Source: a virus. Taken from it: a stretch of 34,952 bases of DNA. The DNA lies in the IMG/VR virus record IMGVR_UViG_3300010970_000061, positions 1 through 34,952 of that record, one strand, 5' to 3'. The number at the start of each line of letters is the position of its first letter. The first letter of the stretch is position 1. Below, in pieces: positions 13,009-21,818 of the stretch. Position numbers and translations under genes: made by a program. The notes beneath the pieces were generated by a model, which saw only the letters and a program-made list of their open reading frames with translations, did no database searches and was not told the DNA's origin.

Positions 13009-13878
13009 TTATAACTCCGAAATATTAGGGTTTTTACTGCGCCCTTCATGTAGCTTAACAAGGTCTTTATTGCCTTGCATACGCTTAATGGCGCGTTCTG
13101 TAGCTTTAGATTTCATACGGGCTAATTCACCCGTTTTACATTCACAATGCTTTAGGTTCTTTAGGGTGTAGAAAACAAAGCTGTTTCTATAGCTTTTAGG
13201 GCTATGGTAGGTAATAGGGGTTACGCCATGCAGTATGTTTACGCCATCCACAATAGCTAACCATCCATCATCTTGGGCTAACGCTACCCTGTAAGCTGGC
13301 ATTACAAAGTAACCGCCTTCTGCCATTCTCTTGCTAATTAATACATTGCTAAACACTTGGCCCATGTTCCCTGCATCTACATGGTATTTAATGGCAAAGT
13401 TCTTGTTAATGTTAATAGTGCTAAATGGTGTGCCTGTTTTCATCCAATCAGAATTAATGTTGCCTGATTCTTGGGCAAAGTATTGGCTCATTTCGGGCAG
13501 TTTTGTTTGGTATGTACCCCATAGTTCTTTGGCGGCCTTGCTTAGTAAGCTAAACATTTTAGGGTCTTGCTTAGTATCACCACTGAACCTGCAGTAATCT
13601 TCCCTTAACGCTACACGGGGTAGTGCGCCAAATACAGTGCTATTAGTAACCACCCCTAGCGTTCTGCTGCTTTTCTTGCTGGTGCTGTTTGCGCTGGCAT
13701 AGTCAAGAATAACCTTAACTTCAGGGCTAACCTTTTTGTAAATACATACTAACTTATCGTTTTCGTATATTTCACATTCAAAGTTAATTACCGTGTCGTA
13801 GTCTTTGGCGGTAGGTACTTTGCCTTTATAAGCGTTATGGTCTAGCTTTAAAGGGTCTGTAATGACTATTTTCTGCAT
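13009..13878 (-). CDS. TET/JBP-family 2-oxoglutarate/Fe(II) dioxygenase
   Basis: A 289-residue protein. The double-stranded beta-helix signature is clear: FSTININKNFAIKYHVDAG with the iron ligands His166 and Asp168, GVNILHGVTPI with His217, and SYRNSFVFYTLK with Arg231 as the likely 2-oxoglutarate contact. An N-terminal FGALPRVALREDYCR segment is also typical of phage TET/JBP proteins. Known members hydroxylate 5-methylpyrimidines in DNA. Substrate here (5mC or T) cannot be told and no DNA methyltransferase is seen in the window. The gene overlaps the ParB-domain gene by 13 bases and lies 3 bases upstream of the small terminase. Confidence 0.78.
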   Translation of the reverse strand: MQKIVITDPLKLDHNAYKGKVPTAKDYDTVINFECEIYENDKLVCIYKKVSPEVKVILDYASANSTSKKSSRTLGVVTNSTVFGALPRVALREDYCRFSGDTKQDPKMFSLLSKAAKELWGTYQTKLPEMSQYFAQESGNINSDWMKTGTPFSTININKNFAIKYHVDAGNMGQVFSNVLISKRMAEGGYFVMPAYRVALAQDDGWLAIVDGVNILHGVTPITYHSPKSYRNSFVFYTLKNLKHCECKTGELARMKSKATERAIKRMQGNKDLVKLHEGRSKNPNISEL

Positions 13879-14465
13879 TTTTCTAGTACCAGTGCCATAA
13901 CAATGGTGGAAAAATCTTCTATTTCTAGTTCTTTTTGCAGTTCTTGCAGGCCGTTAACTACGCTTTCAAATTCTTGTTCGTCATAGGCTAACCGCAGTAT
14001 TTTGGTGTCCCCGTTTAAGAAGTTGTCTAGCTTTTCGTCAGGCAACAGGCCAAGTTCAGCTTCTTGTGGGGTTGTATCTAGCAGTTCGTCTAATTCGTTT
14101 TCAGTAAAGCCAAGCAATTCTAGGTTGAAATTGCCCTTTAGCAGTTCTTCCATTTCTATAGCTAATAGGTCAGCATCCCAGCCAGCATTCATAGCTAGCT
14201 TGTTGTCAGCAATAATGTAAGCTTTTTTTTGGGGTTCTGTTAAGTCGCTACAGTCAATTGTGGGTACTTGCTTTAGGTTTAGCTTGCGCGCAGCTAGTAA
14301 GCGGCCATGCCCAGCTATTACGCCAGTGCCATCTACCAATATAGGGTTTCTAAAGCCAAACTCTTTAATGCTTGCGGCAATTTGCGCTATTTGGGCTTCT
14401 GAATGGGTGCGGCTGTTCTTTGCGTAAGGTATTAGCTTATCTACCGCTACTTCTTTGATTTGCAT
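13866..14465 (-). CDS. ParB/Srx-domain protein
   Basis: A 199-residue protein. Residues 1-75 are a ParB/sulfiredoxin-type domain: VDKLIPYAKNSRTHSEAQIAQI, FGFRNPILVDGTGVIAGHGR (GxGR motif), and LAARKLNLKQVPTI, then KAYIIADNKLA. In many phages and mobile elements this module is fused to a DNA methyltransferase; here it is followed by an acidic helical tail and no methyltransferase. It overlaps the TET/JBP-type gene. Members can hydrolyse CTP or nucleotides and bind DNA; here a role in DNA modification or nicking is inferred from context only. Confidence 0.75.
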   Translation of the reverse strand: MQIKEVAVDKLIPYAKNSRTHSEAQIAQIAASIKEFGFRNPILVDGTGVIAGHGRLLAARKLNLKQVPTIDCSDLTEPQKKAYIIADNKLAMNAGWDADLLAIEMEELLKGNFNLELLGFTENELDELLDTTPQEAELGLLPDEKLDNFLNGDTKILRLAYDEQEFESVVNGLQELQKELEIEDFSTIVMALVLEKCRK

Positions 14466-18435: not shown

Positions 18436-18720
18436 TTACTTGTCGTGTTTGTTTGTGTAGTCGAAACGGTCAACTTCTTGCTGCTTGTTGCGTTCTTCGC
18501 GTATTACCTGTTCCATAGCAGCAGACCATTCACCCATGTTGCAAGCATTAACAGCTTTAAGGCCAAGCCAGCCACCAATGCGGCCATCTGCCAATTCGTT
18601 ATAAAGGGAATCAATGTCTAGTGCTGGTGTGCCATCAGCGTGTGTGCCAATGTGCCAGTGTTTGTTAGCGTACATAGCGCGTTTAATGGCTACTGCTGCT
18701 GCGTTAATTGTTGTATTCAT
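18436..18720 (-). CDS. First gene of the leftward operon, function unknown
   Basis: A 94-residue soluble protein (MNTTINAAAVAIKRAMYANK ... QEVDRFDYTNKHDK) with Trp/Asn-rich segments and no recognised domain. It is the first gene after the leftward operator-promoter at 18756-18785 and is followed by an attenuator-like hairpin; genes in that position in phages are often early host-takeover proteins, which is a guess here. Confidence 0.6.
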   Translation of the reverse strand: MNTTINAAAVAIKRAMYANKHWHIGTHADGTPALDIDSLYNELADGRIGGWLGLKAVNACNMGEWSAAMEQVIREERNKQQEVDRFDYTNKHDK

Positions 18721-18735: not shown

Positions 18736-18749
18736 ACTTTCGTTAAAGT
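18736..18749 (-). promoter_or_regulatory. 5'-terminal mRNA hairpin of the leftward operon
   Basis: On the minus strand ACTTT-AACG-AAAGT, flanked by T and GA, starts 6 nt after the -10 box, i.e. at the expected first transcribed base. It has the same position and shape as the hairpins at 19478 and 21504 while the stem sequence differs. Confidence 0.6.
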
Positions 18750-18755
18750 AAGGCT

Positions 18756-18785
18756 AGTATAAGTTAAGTATTCTTAACTATGCAA
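18756..18785 (-). promoter_or_regulatory. Leftward early promoter with inverted-repeat operator
   Basis: Minus strand: TTGCAT (18785-18780), 18-nt spacer, TATACT (18761-18756; TTATAC with 17 nt is the alternative). The spacer is filled by GTTAAG-AATA-CTTAAC (18763-18778), a perfect inverted repeat also present in the promoter at 21469. A repressor bound there would block RNA polymerase. It serves the long leftward gene series. Confidence 0.75.
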
Positions 18786-19041
18786 GTGTTTTTTAATTTA
18801 TTTTGTAGGTATCTACCCTAATATATTTAATTAGTTGCTTTTTGGTGAACGCACCTAGCCTAACCTAAGTGCCTTCAATAGTTGCTTTTCGGAGCCACTA
18901 CACCCGTAAGACTTGCGCGGTACAGGCTCTTACTTCGCCACCTGTTTATGTGCTTTTACATCCGCTATCCCTTAGTAACACTTGTACCTTAACCGCTAAT
19001 GGTTTTGACCGCCCAGTTAAGGCCATCAAGGAATAGACAAT
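18786..19041. other. Noncoding stretch with inverted and direct repeats
   Basis: No credible gene. It contains an AT-rich part (18791-18834), a direct repeat AGTTGCTTTT(T/C)GG at 18833-18845 and 18880-18892, an inverted pair GTAAGA/TCTTAC with a 16-nt loop (minus strand, near 18908-18936), and CCTTAAC (18987-18993)/GTTAAGG (19016-19022), which carries operator half-sites in reversed order. It could be a replication origin, a regulatory site, or encode a small RNA; the sequence alone does not decide. Confidence 0.45.
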
Positions 19042-19133
19042 AAAAAAGGGCTTTATTGGTAGCTTTAGCTTGAACGGCTTTGGAAATGCCTCTTTACTTC
19101 ATTTCCGAAACCCTAAAACCACCAATAAAACCC
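19042..19133 (-). terminator. Long-stemmed terminator of the repressor gene
   Basis: Arms 19048-19060 and 19121-19133 pair over 13 positions with one mismatch; inside, GGAAATG pairs with CATTTCC plus flanking pairs. On the minus strand the structure is followed by TTTTTT (19047-19042). It follows the repressor stop by about 45 bases. It isolates the repressor transcript from the stretch upstream of the leftward promoter. The 60-nt interior is longer than normal. Confidence 0.65.
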
Positions 19134-19177
19134 TATTCTGAGTGTTCAAGTCCTCAATACAGCAAATTGTACAACAA

Positions 19178-19399
19178 CTAATTTAGTTCAGGCCAAATTA
19201 ATTTATAAGTTGTAGGAAATAAGCTTTTGCGCGTTACAAGCCCGTGTGATTCCTTTTCCAGCGTAGCAGCCAGCACTATAAGTTTGTCTTGCGGTATTTC
19301 CCCGTTTTGCCACATAGAAACGGCAGGTACGCTAACCCCTACCAGCTTGGCTATACGGGTAGGGCCACCTAAAAGTTTAATTATTGCTGTGCTATTCAT
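19178..19399 (-). CDS. YdaS/Cro-like HTH repressor
   Basis: A 73-residue protein. Residues 8-45 (LLGGPTRIAKLVGVSVPAVS then MWQNGEIPQDKLIVLAATLE) form a Cro/YdaS-type helix-turn-helix with the recognition helix around VSVPAVSMWQ. It is divergent from the rightward operon and lies between promoters sharing an inverted-repeat operator, so it is the natural candidate for the operator-binding protein. Its own promoter would give an almost leaderless mRNA, as for lambda cI. No integrase accompanies it, so it may time early expression rather than maintain lysogeny. Confidence 0.8.
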   Translation of the reverse strand: MNSTAIIKLLGGPTRIAKLVGVSVPAVSMWQNGEIPQDKLIVLAATLEKESHGLVTRKSLFPTTYKLIWPELN

Positions 19400-19434
19400 T
19401 CAGTTATCTTAACAAATATTTAGCAAAAAGACAA
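19398..19434 (-). promoter_or_regulatory. Repressor promoter with degenerate operator
   Basis: Minus strand: TTGTCT (19434-19429), 17-nt spacer, TAAGAT (19411-19406), which puts transcription start at about the ATG (19399); no Shine-Dalgarno fits. GTTAAG-ATAA-CTGAAT (19413-19398) is a half-perfect copy of the operator, overlapping the -10 box and start codon, which would allow autoregulation. Confidence 0.5.
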
Positions 19435-19442
19435 ATAAAGCC

Positions 19443-19471
19443 TTGCATTGTTATTTAAGCTGGCTTAATAT
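19443..19471 (+). promoter_or_regulatory. Rightward early promoter 1 with operator
   Basis: TTGCAT (19443-19448), 17-nt spacer, TAATAT (19466-19471). TTTAAG-CTGG-CTTAAT (19454-19469), a variant of the shared inverted repeat (its inner arms TTAAG/CTTAA are perfect), covers the spacer and -10 box. It is shifted towards the -10 relative to the other two promoters. Drives the SSB/exonuclease genes. Confidence 0.75.
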
Positions 19472-19477
19472 GTATGT

Positions 19478-19491
19478 ACCGCAAGTGCGGT
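19478..19491 (+). promoter_or_regulatory. 5'-terminal mRNA hairpin of rightward operon 1
   Basis: ACCGCA-AG-TGCGGT, a perfect 14-base inverted repeat beginning 6 nt after the -10 box. Same position and flanks (T...GA) as in the other two operons. May protect the 5' end of the mRNA; a second protein-binding site is an alternative. Confidence 0.6.
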
Positions 19492-19522
19492 GATAACTAC
19501 CCAATTAGGGTGAAAGGAATGT

Positions 19523-19759
19523 ATGAATAAAGAAGAAAGCCAAGAGCAATGGGCTGACAATGTCAAGTTGGAATACGAACTTGAAAACGCCCTAGAAGAT
19601 GCCGAGCAAGGCATTACGCTAACACTAGAGCAAATAGACACCATCCGCTTTGCTTGCGGACTCCCTGCAAAACCAAGACAAGAAAAAAGCGCATCAGGCC
19701 AAGCTATTTGGAATATGTTGCTAGACATGAATGCTGCCATTCAGAAAGGTATGAAATGA
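19523..19759 (+). CDS. Small acidic protein, first gene of the rightward operon
   Basis: A 78-residue acidic, helical protein (MNKEESQEQWADNVKLEYEL...ASGQAIWNMLLDMNAAIQKG). AAAGGAATG precedes the start. It ends in an ATGA overlap with the SSB-like gene. No recognised domain. Confidence 0.6.
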   Translation: MNKEESQEQWADNVKLEYELENALEDAEQGITLTLEQIDTIRFACGLPAKPRQEKSASGQAIWNMLLDMNAAIQKGMK

Positions 19760-20367
19760 TTATTTCCGATAGTTCTAAAGAATTTAAAATTGCCCCTGCT
19801 GGGTTACACATGGCGCGGTTGTATAGCGTTATTGACTTAGGCCACCAAGCTACAGAATGGGCTGGCGAAACCAAAATTATGCATAAGGTAGTTCTTACTT
19901 GGGAATTGCACGGGGAAGATGAAGCAGGCGGCCCATTAAAAACAGAAGATGGCAAACCATTAATTGTTTCTAAGCGTTATACCGTTTCTTTAGGGGAACA
20001 AGCCCGTTTGCGCCAAGACCTTGAAAGCTGGGGCAATAAGAAAATGACAGCAGAAGATAGAAAGAAGTTTGACCTTAAAAGCTTGCTAGACAAATTCTGC
20101 ATGGTCAATATTACGCATTCAGAAGATGGCAAATACGCCAACATTAGCGGCATTAGCCCTATTCCTACTGCTTTGCGTAATGCTATTCCTGATGGCATTA
20201 ACCCAGTAGTGCATTTTTGGTTAGCTGAATTTGACCAAGCCAAATATGATGCGTTGCCAAAGTATTACCGCGAAAAGATTACAGAAAGTAGCGAATGGCG
20301 CGGCCAAAAAGCCAAAGAAGCAGAAGAAGTAGCTAACCCAATGCCTGATGATGACATTCCATTTTAA
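19756..20367 (+). CDS. SSB-like single-stranded DNA-binding protein
   Basis: I choose the ATG at 19756 (MIISDSSKEFKIAPAGLHMA), in an ATGA overlap with the preceding gene; the longer frame upstream reads that gene out of phase. The 203-residue product has a beta-rich body (LYSVIDLG, KVVLTWELHG, VSKRYTVSLG, MVNITHSEDGKYANISGI) and ends PDDDIPF, the acidic tip by which SSB proteins recruit partners. It sits next to a RecB-like exonuclease, so a replication/recombination role is likely. Confidence 0.7.
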   Translation: MIISDSSKEFKIAPAGLHMARLYSVIDLGHQATEWAGETKIMHKVVLTWELHGEDEAGGPLKTEDGKPLIVSKRYTVSLGEQARLRQDLESWGNKKMTAEDRKKFDLKSLLDKFCMVNITHSEDGKYANISGISPIPTALRNAIPDGINPVVHFWLAEFDQAKYDALPKYYREKITESSEWRGQKAKEAEEVANPMPDDDIPF

Positions 20368-20382
20368 TAAGGACAAATAACC

Positions 20383-20511
20383 ATGAAAAAATTAATCGCT
20401 ATTGCATTACTTACCGCTTCTTTTGCTGCTGTTGCAGCTTGCCCAACTTATGCCCCATACCGCTGCGTAAGCGGTTATAACGGCAAAATGATTTGTGGGT
20501 GTGGCGTATGA
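20383..20511 (+). CDS. 42-residue Cys-rich lipoprotein-like peptide
   Basis: MKKLIAIALLTASFAAVAAC is a signal peptide with a lipobox-like VAAC; the mature part (PTYAPYRCVSGYNGKMICGC) has three further Cys. AAGGAC lies 10 nt upstream. The stop overlaps the exonuclease start (ATGA). It is an odd insert in a DNA-metabolism operon; such early lipoproteins in other phages can block superinfection, which is a guess here. Confidence 0.55.
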   Translation: MKKLIAIALLTASFAAVAACPTYAPYRCVSGYNGKMICGCGV

Positions 20512-21266
20512 TTATTAAAGAAAAGGTGGCAGAAAGTGGTCATTGGTACACCAAAGATGGAACTCCAGCCTATACAACTATCGGCAAAACTGGGGAACGG
20601 CCAACAACGCTACGGGATGCAAGAAAGCTTGACCTATTGCCTAGCGTTTCAACAATTATTGGAATGCTATCAAAAGCAGGCCTTGATACATGGAAGCAGC
20701 AACAAGTCCTGTTAGCAGCTTTAACGCTTCCACGACAAACGGGTGAACCTGAAACTGAATGGTTAAGCCGTGTAATGCAAGATTCCAAAGCTACTGGCAG
20801 GGAAGCTGCAGAACGCGGTACGGCTATACACGCCATTATTCAGGGTTACTTTGAACAAGTGTATATGCCTGAAAAGCCACCGTATGTTGACAATGTAGTA
20901 CAAGCCCTAGAAGTTAAGTACGGTAACCAGCTTTGGTTGTCAGAAAAAAGCTTTGGCCACCCATTAGGTTATGGCGGCAAATGCGACCTTATGTCTAAGA
21001 AAATGGTGGGTACTGGCGGCATTGTTGTTGACTTCAAAACAAAAGAAACCGATTTAGAAAAGGTTGATGTATATTTTGAGCATGAAATGCAGCTAGCGGC
21101 CTACCGTGAAGGGCTAGGTATTCCCAACGCGCAAGCAGCTATTGTGTTTGTCAACGGTAAAACTAACCAAGTAAAGCTAATAGAAGTGCCTGAAGAAAAC
21201 CTGCAAAAAGGTTGGGCCTGCTTCGAGCATTTACTGCGTGTTTACCAAATAAAGAACGGCTTATAA
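20508..21266 (+). CDS. RecB/Cas4-like PD-(D/E)XK exonuclease
   Basis: The ATG at 20508 (ATGA overlap with the lipoprotein gene) gives 252 residues. Nuclease signature: RGTAIHAII with His108, EKSFGHPLGYGGKCDLMSK with Asp160, VVDFKTKE with Asp175 and Lys177, and MQLAAYREGLG with Gln195 and Tyr199 (the QxxxY motif of RecB-type exonucleases). It probably works with the SSB-like protein in phage recombination or end processing. No annealing protein of the Beta or RecT type is seen. Confidence 0.82.
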   Translation: MIIKEKVAESGHWYTKDGTPAYTTIGKTGERPTTLRDARKLDLLPSVSTIIGMLSKAGLDTWKQQQVLLAALTLPRQTGEPETEWLSRVMQDSKATGREAAERGTAIHAIIQGYFEQVYMPEKPPYVDNVVQALEVKYGNQLWLSEKSFGHPLGYGGKCDLMSKKMVGTGGIVVDFKTKETDLEKVDVYFEHEMQLAAYREGLGIPNAQAAIVFVNGKTNQVKLIEVPEENLQKGWACFEHLLRVYQIKNGL

Positions 21267-21430
21267 TTTAAGTTCCTTCACGGGAACGGGGGAAAGCGTA
21301 AAGAAGTGAGTACCCCAACTTCTTTTAGGGCGTTAAGCCGCCATAGTAGGATGCAGTAATTAGGGAATTTTGCGGCTTTCTGCCCTATTGCTTGTAACTG
21401 CCAAATACTGCCCTGTGTTTTTTTACAACA
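21267..21430 (+). ncRNA. Structured noncoding stretch between the two rightward operons
   Basis: No gene. It contains GTTCC/GGAAC, AAAGAAGT (about 21299)/ACTTCTTT (8 bp perfect, 10-nt loop), AAGCCGC/GCGGCTT (7 bp perfect, about 35 nt apart) with TAGGG/CCCTA nested near it, and ends with seven T at 21418-21424. It may be an elaborate 3' UTR ending in a terminator or a small RNA. I do not recognise a known RNA family. Confidence 0.4.
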
Positions 21431-21468
21431 TATTAGGGTTTTCCTTAGAAATATTTGTGTAAATACTC

Positions 21469-21497
21469 TTGCATTGTTAAGTTGCCTTAACTAAACT
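21469..21497 (+). promoter_or_regulatory. Rightward early promoter 2 with operator
   Basis: TTGCAT (21469-21474), 17-nt spacer, TAAACT (21492-21497). GTTAAG-TTGC-CTTAAC (21476-21491) fills the spacer exactly as in the leftward promoter. Confidence 0.75.
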
Positions 21498-21503
21498 ACT
21501 TGT

Positions 21504-21518
21504 ACTGCGTGTTGCAGT
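21504..21518 (+). promoter_or_regulatory. 5'-terminal mRNA hairpin of rightward operon 2
   Basis: ACTGC-GTGTT-GCAGT, starting 6 nt after the -10 box; equivalent to the hairpins at 18736 and 19478. Confidence 0.6.
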
Positions 21519-21539: not shown

Positions 21540-21818
21540 ATGCAAGCAATTAATGTAGAAATAACCAAAGTTGACCAACTAGGTATGTTGTTGGCCCAAA
21601 TTGCTGACTTGGAAGCCCAAGCAGAAGTTATTAAAAACGAATTAAAGCAGCATGAAGGCCATATTGAAGGCAGCCTATACAAAGCCTGCGTTACCCTTTC
21701 CCAACGCAACACGGTTGACAATAAAGCCGTGTACGCAGCAGCTAATGTGCCTGCAGAACTTATTGCTGCACATACTAAAACTACCGCTGTTATTACTTTA
21801 AAAGTAACAGCCCGTTAA
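21540..21818 (+). CDS. Small coiled-coil protein, function unknown
   Basis: A 92-residue protein: N-terminal coiled coil (VDQLGMLLAQIADLEAQAEV) followed by a beta-rich half (YKACVTLSQRNTVDNKAVYA). This pattern recurs in phage DNA-metabolism operons without known function. GAAAAGGAAAAC precedes the ATG. First gene after rightward promoter 2. Confidence 0.65.
   Translation: MQAINVEITKVDQLGMLLAQIADLEAQAEVIKNELKQHEGHIEGSLYKACVTLSQRNTVDNKAVYAAANVPAELIAAHTKTTAVITLKVTAR

Follow-up and report, generated by a model that had tools for sequence, protein, structure and literature searches.

Why do three promoters of one virus genome carry the same operator and, where transcription is predicted to begin, a small hairpin that differs in sequence each time? 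The question arises in a 34,952-base virus record of IMG/VR (IMGVR_UViG_3300010970_000061), analysed here at its full length and called the window, which by its terminase resembles HTVC010P-like podoviruses, Methylophilales phage Venkman and Rhodoferax phage P26218 among the matches. As a first-pass annotation had reported, and as a motif scan of the window confirms, the three promoters (P1, P2 and P3) share TTGCAT, an inverted repeat and a downstream hairpin. Related IMG/VR loci hold the same cassettes, and the two arms of the hairpin change together among them.

The promoter cassette and its hairpin

The inverted repeat TTAAG-N4-CTTAA occurs exactly three times in the window (at 18764, 19455 and 21477), each copy lying between TTGCAT and a -10 hexamer. 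All three operators sit in sigma70-type promoters and are followed by a hairpin of the form TAC-stem-loop-stem-GTGA; only two other hairpins of the form TAC-stem-GTG are present in the window, neither of them at P1, P2 or P3. The parts of the cassettes are as follows.

18756-18785 (-): P1 promoter, spacer 18 nucleotides (nt)
18780..18785 (-): P1 -35 hexamer TTGCAT
18763..18778 (-): P1 operator GTTAAG-AATA-CTTAAC, half-sites as in the P22 c2 operator
18756..18761 (-): P1 -10 hexamer TATACT, predicted +1 at 18749 by the +7 rule
18736..18749 (-): P1 5'-terminal hairpin ACTTT-AACG-AAAGT, then GA, supported by covariation
19443..19471 (+): P2 promoter TTGCAT-N17-TAATAT
19454..19469 (+): P2 operator TTTAAG-CTGG-CTTAAT
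19478..19491 (+): P2 5'-terminal hairpin ACCGC-AAGT-GCGGT, predicted +1 at 19478
19498..19512 (+): P2 second, internal hairpin UACCC-AAUUA-GGGUG, then A and the Shine–Dalgarno (SD) sequence AAAGGA
21469..21497 (+): P3 promoter TTGCAT-N17-TAAACT
21476..21491 (+): P3 operator GTTAAG-TTGC-CTTAAC
21504..21518 (+): P3 5'-terminal hairpin ACTGC-GTGTT-GCAGT, predicted +1 at 21504

Two details of the earlier description change. The hairpin follows the -10 hexamer at all three promoters, but its offset had been given as 6 nt, and the first stem base is the seventh nucleotide after that hexamer, at P1 with the -10 read as TATACT. P2 also has a tandem hairpin (19498-19512) that had been overlooked; tandem hairpins of the P2 form are found in 23 distinct leaders.

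In 153 IMG/VR loci, drawn from two protein-based scans and selected blind to promoters, the same cassettes recur with many different stems. Among the 156 distinct operator promoters of these loci and the window, 136 have a stem that starts 7-8 nt after the -10; by eye, the 20 without a stem are mostly matches by chance, the cro operator (see below) read on the opposite strand, misplaced spacers or a sub-threshold stem. Counted with overlapping loci included, a stem stands at this place in 290/305 operator promoters (95%) versus 9/153 promoter-like sites without an operator (6%). An IMG/VR scan for promoter plus operator, with no hairpin required, gives a hairpin at this place in 75 of the 123 matches listed; the rest of these listed matches come mostly from apparently unrelated phages, with a few same-type promoters that have none (L174, L176). 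The count of only three operators, the contrast of 95% with 6% and the covariation described below rule out a chance origin. Cellular or prophage copies were sought in the genome collection, and its 8 matches were rejected, all being chance-like.

The distance to the promoter is rigid. The first paired A is exactly the seventh nucleotide after the -10, the predicted +1, in 258 of the 278 operator promoters with an AC...GT stem, whereas the distances from the hairpin to the SD sequence (mostly 5-10 nt) and to the ATG (mostly 14-41 nt) are both variable, so that the hairpin follows where transcription begins rather than where ribosomes bind. Of the bases upstream of +1, the one at -1 does not vary, and the one at -2 has a modest pairing excess (98 versus 76 expected).

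The observation in the window that the differing stems always pair is borne out in related genomes, where many relatives retain the stems with covarying arms, the opposite of the loss of pairing that the first-pass annotation had named as contrary evidence. For 57 distinct hairpins, selected by [TC]AC at this distance from the -10 and a downstream GTG alone, with the inner positions ignored, the bases pair in 56/57 at stem position 3 and in 57/57 at position 4; Watson–Crick pairs at these positions number 56 and 53 of 57, versus shuffled means of 26.3 and 23.6. In an alignment of 30 hairpins, 98% of the cells are paired with 42 double changes, versus 27-52% paired in slid controls, and the covariation score is 0.757 (shuffled, 0.161; slid, 0.06-0.17). 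Because these 30 were hand-picked for diversity, the 57-hairpin test and the contrast between sites with and without an operator are less biased. Four pair types occur at stem position 3, the outer AC/GT pairs are nearly constant, and the hairpins have in common a UAC/GUGA frame, mostly A-first loops and a GA that is conserved behind the stem, and differ widely in the sequence of loop and stem. When leaders are folded, +1 is paired (probability > 0.5) in 96% of 187, versus 12% when shuffled, and the SD sequence is open (mean unpaired probability 0.88). Rfam has no family over the hairpins, even at E<=10, its sole match at gathering score (RF02932) lying elsewhere in the window (18902-19023).

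At the level of sequence, these comparisons establish that the cassette exists and is conserved, that the hairpin sits at a fixed +7, and that stem changes are compensatory. The paired evolution of its arms marks the hairpin as a genuine element, conserved in the control system of these phages.

The Cro-like protein and its probable operators

By family and binding-site resemblance, the likely repressor of these promoters is a 73-residue protein.

19178..19399 (-): cro-like gene, 73 amino acids, P22_Cro/YdaS family, likely repressor (Pfam and profile matches)
19398..19413 (-): degenerate operator GTTAAG-ATAA-CTGAAT over the cro start codon
19406..19434 (-): predicted cro promoter TTGTCT-N17-TAAGAT, predicted +1 at the A of the ATG

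The protein scores 32.7 bits against Pfam P22_Cro (cut-off 30.2), a family matched at E<=0.001 by 20/20 orthologues. On its own, the single sequence has no match among solved P22 Cro/C2 structures; a profile built from the 20 orthologues hits solved Cro proteins, P22 Cro among them (8co2, 8c7k and 1rzs, at E<=1e-4), and, weakly, P22 C2 (E 0.026). The P22 c2 operator in crystal 2R1J, CATTTAAGATATCTTAAATA, contains TTAAG-N4-CTTAA (PMC9976882). YdaS of CP-933P, which by name shares the Pfam family of the 73-residue protein, works as an analogue of Cro and binds the region of its own promoter (PMC8630535).

The degenerate operator that had been noticed over the cro start is present (19398-19413, minus strand), and a site within 2 mismatches of the operator lies over the start of 95/104 distinct cro orthologues. 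In the window, the -10 TAAGAT falls in the left half-site with a 17-nt spacer, which puts the predicted +1 on the first letter of the cro ATG, and the cro mRNA is predicted to be leaderless and without a hairpin. An operator promoter without a hairpin also stands directly before an ATG (MIETIMTVF...) in L030 2100, L031 2476 and L040 580 (minus strand), apparently giving a leaderless transcript. Directly after cro, a long hairpin with a U tract (19030-19142, minus strand; -44.4 kcal/mol, z -6.1) is probably its terminator. In the regulatory region of the window, no repressor of the CI type was recognised.

In one lineage (L043, L046, L050, L060, L066 and others), the recognition helix reads VQAVCQWR where others have VPAVSMWQ, and the promoters bear TAAAG-N4-CTTTA. 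Counted by locus, the group of helices with VPAVSMWQ (157) goes with TTAAG throughout, and the other comprises 15 with TAAAG and 2 undecided; the change of helix and operator may have happened only once in evolution. Since this lineage keeps the hairpin at all three promoters, with further stems such as ACUAAC/GUUAGU and ACCGA/UCGGU, the operator and the hairpin can be separated. In the diverged Manatee Spring podovirus MW202674, operator and hairpins are both kept, the P1 hairpin being AUGGC-AAUAAC-GCCAU.

P1 and P3 have a second element farther upstream.

18806..18821 (-): P1 upstream element TTAGGGTAGATACCTA, TAGGG begins 35 nt upstream of the -35
21433..21448 (+): P3 upstream element TTAGGGTTTTCCTTAG, TAGGG begins 35 nt upstream of the -35

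TAGGG-N3-6-CCYTA lies upstream of the -35 in 108/143 distinct P1/P3-type promoters, placed only 15-16, 24-27 or 35-37 nt from it, in steps of one DNA turn; it occurs at those places in 2/79 P2-type promoters, and anywhere in 117/5000 random windows. This helical phasing suggests a bound protein, and Cro is probably not the sole regulator. The proposal that one small repressor runs all early transcription is supported by the P22_Cro match, the P22 c2 half-sites, the operator over the cro start and the joint difference of helix and operator, but is incomplete, given the second phased element of P1/P3-type promoters, which P2 lacks.

What the hairpin may do

We favour, with moderate confidence, a Cro-controlled promoter cassette whose 5'-end hairpin protects the mRNA from RppH and RNase E. 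The repeated cassette would join a sigma70-type promoter to a hairpin of 4-6 base pairs that begins at the first transcribed base, with a P22-type Cro operator set between the -35 and the -10. The 73-residue protein would be made from its own predicted leaderless mRNA, a weaker operator overlapping that promoter and start codon, and would bind all four sites, turning down the P1, P2 and P3 units and itself as it accumulates; we infer such binding and down-regulation from homology, the operator match and the co-variation of recognition helix and operator. The hairpin would act in the RNA, leaving the nascent mRNA with no unpaired 5' nucleotides, so that RppH could not strip the pyrophosphate, RNase E could not use the 5' end, and leadered phage mRNAs would be long-lived, whereas the hairpin-free cro mRNA would decay faster. 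The accepted explanation of mRNA stabilisation by 5' structure is that RppH and RNase E require a 5' end that is single-stranded (PMC3997798); a hairpin of this stabilising kind is known at the 5' end of T4 gene 32 (PMC8948821). That the hairpin probably shields phage mRNAs from decay is the most economical reading because of its strict anchoring to the start, its free stem and loop sequence, and its absence from the leaderless mRNA.

Several points weigh against 5'-end protection. The start sites are predictions from promoter geometry only, the P1 hairpin is weak when folded (-1.2 kcal/mol, with an unpaired probability of 0.62 at +1), and the second P2 hairpin, of the same form, lies away from the 5' end. 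In addition, the constant UAC/GUGA frame, the A-first loops and the conserved GA would not be required by protection alone. Frame and tandem hairpin, left unexplained, keep a recognised RNA signal in view.

Such a signal could be a nascent-RNA site, like lambda nut or HK022 put, at which a phage or host protein or RNA polymerase alters elongation, termination or translation, and we hold this as a tentative alternative. The hairpins lie right after the promoter on the divergent P1 and P2 and on P3, their frame is constant and their loops are mostly A-first, the tandem copies at P2 recall the two stem-loops of put, and a terminator-like stem follows the first P1 gene; yet loop and stem sequences vary widely, nut or put would not need strict +1 anchoring, terminator-like matches are no commoner than in shuffles, and no antiterminator was recognised among the proteins scanned. 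It is likewise possible, though doubtful, that the hairpin is a new RNA signal with a trans-acting reader (RNA polymerase, the ribosome or a phage protein), one that would mark the leadered mRNAs of the phage at their 5' end and co-ordinate all Cro-controlled transcripts after initiation. We think it rather improbable that the hairpin acts on translation, insulating or presenting the ribosome binding site with the A-rich SD region open, e.g., as a standby site or through complementarity of GUGA to the 16S rRNA end: the SD sequence mostly follows within 5-10 nt and is open, the second P2 hairpin adjoins it, and the leaderless cro has no hairpin, but SD and ATG spacing is loose and start spacing is rigid. 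A role of the inverted repeat as DNA, e.g., as a second operator or promoter-escape element, would explain the fixed distance to the promoter and the nearly constant outer AC/GT pairs; it is very unlikely, as the inner positions co-change in a way that keeps pairing only, with the four pair types at position 3, which is unexpected for sequence-specific DNA binding.

Neighbouring features and known systems

P1 faces a long leftward block that includes the terminase, and a rightward block with an exonuclease-like protein is, by gene layout, driven by P2 and P3; we infer that all three are early promoters. Their first genes are listed here.

18436..18720 (-): first gene of P1, 94 amino acids, function unknown
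19523..19759 (+): first gene of P2, 78 amino acids, function unknown
21540..21818 (+): first gene of P3, 92 amino acids, function unknown, conserved in 138 IMG/VR stretches

A 92-residue homologue occurs in Limnohabitans phage DC33 and in phage zth2-2, but no cassette was recognisable upstream of the gene by hairpin filter or by eye. The DC33 record (L281, PQ492659; 39 kb) is classed as Inoviridae; its size and gene content suggest a tailed phage. Near P1 is a phage-borne member of the Rfam family RF02932, Betaproteobacteria-1 RNA (18902-19023, minus strand; 92.6 bits), which is also found in 3/14 relatives' loci (L099, L028, L049). Between the exonuclease gene and P3, noncoding positions 21270-21412 (+) hold blocks strongly conserved in relatives (GGGCGTTAAGCCGCCA, AGTAGGATGCAGTAA and GCGGCTTTC); this stretch has no Rfam match at gathering, and its single-sequence folding is not significant. 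Elsewhere (13009-14465, minus strand), a Tet/JBP-family oxygenase adjoins a protein whose ParB-like N-terminal domain is just below the Pfam cut-off, a pair possibly concerned with DNA base modification. Literature searches found nothing on HTVC010P with promoter and stem-loop, Betaproteobacteria-1 RNA, or Limnohabitans with stem-loop.

Stabilising 5' hairpins are known so far from single mRNAs, and an abundant clade of freshwater phages now seems to carry one in nearly every leadered promoter of its regulatory circuit, kept while stem sequence, operator and repressor specificity changed. The many natural variants can be used to ask how 5'-end structure sets mRNA lifetime, and bear on whether phages use such structure to outlast host mRNA and on how Cro operator specificity switches. 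The P2 tandem hairpins and the helically phased upstream element of P1/P3-type promoters would be the new features.

Among known systems, P22 Cro/C2 and YdaS of CP-933P are likewise small helix-turn-helix proteins of Pfam P22_Cro/YdaS, and the P22 c2 operator has the same half-sites, TTAAG...CTTAA, with sites on divergent promoters that include the repressor's own; the window, unlike P22, has single operators in separate promoters and over the cro start codon. Coliphage N4 also has short hairpins at its promoters, which a giant virion RNA polymerase recognises in single-stranded DNA, whereas those of the window lie downstream of sigma70-type hexamers and the longest open reading frame in the window encodes 759 amino acids. 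Lambda nut and HK022 put are, like the hairpins here, small and transcribed just after divergent phage promoters, with a tandem pair as at P2. They differ in that the window hairpins start at the predicted +1, have many loop sequences in place of a conserved recognised loop or sequence, and come with no antiterminator recognised among the proteins scanned. The ompA, papA and T4 gene 32 leaders have a hairpin at or close to their very 5' end, where those of the window are predicted to lie, and likewise an open SD sequence behind it; unlike them, the hairpin described here is a covarying unit, set at the predicted first base of nearly every leadered operator promoter in a phage clade.

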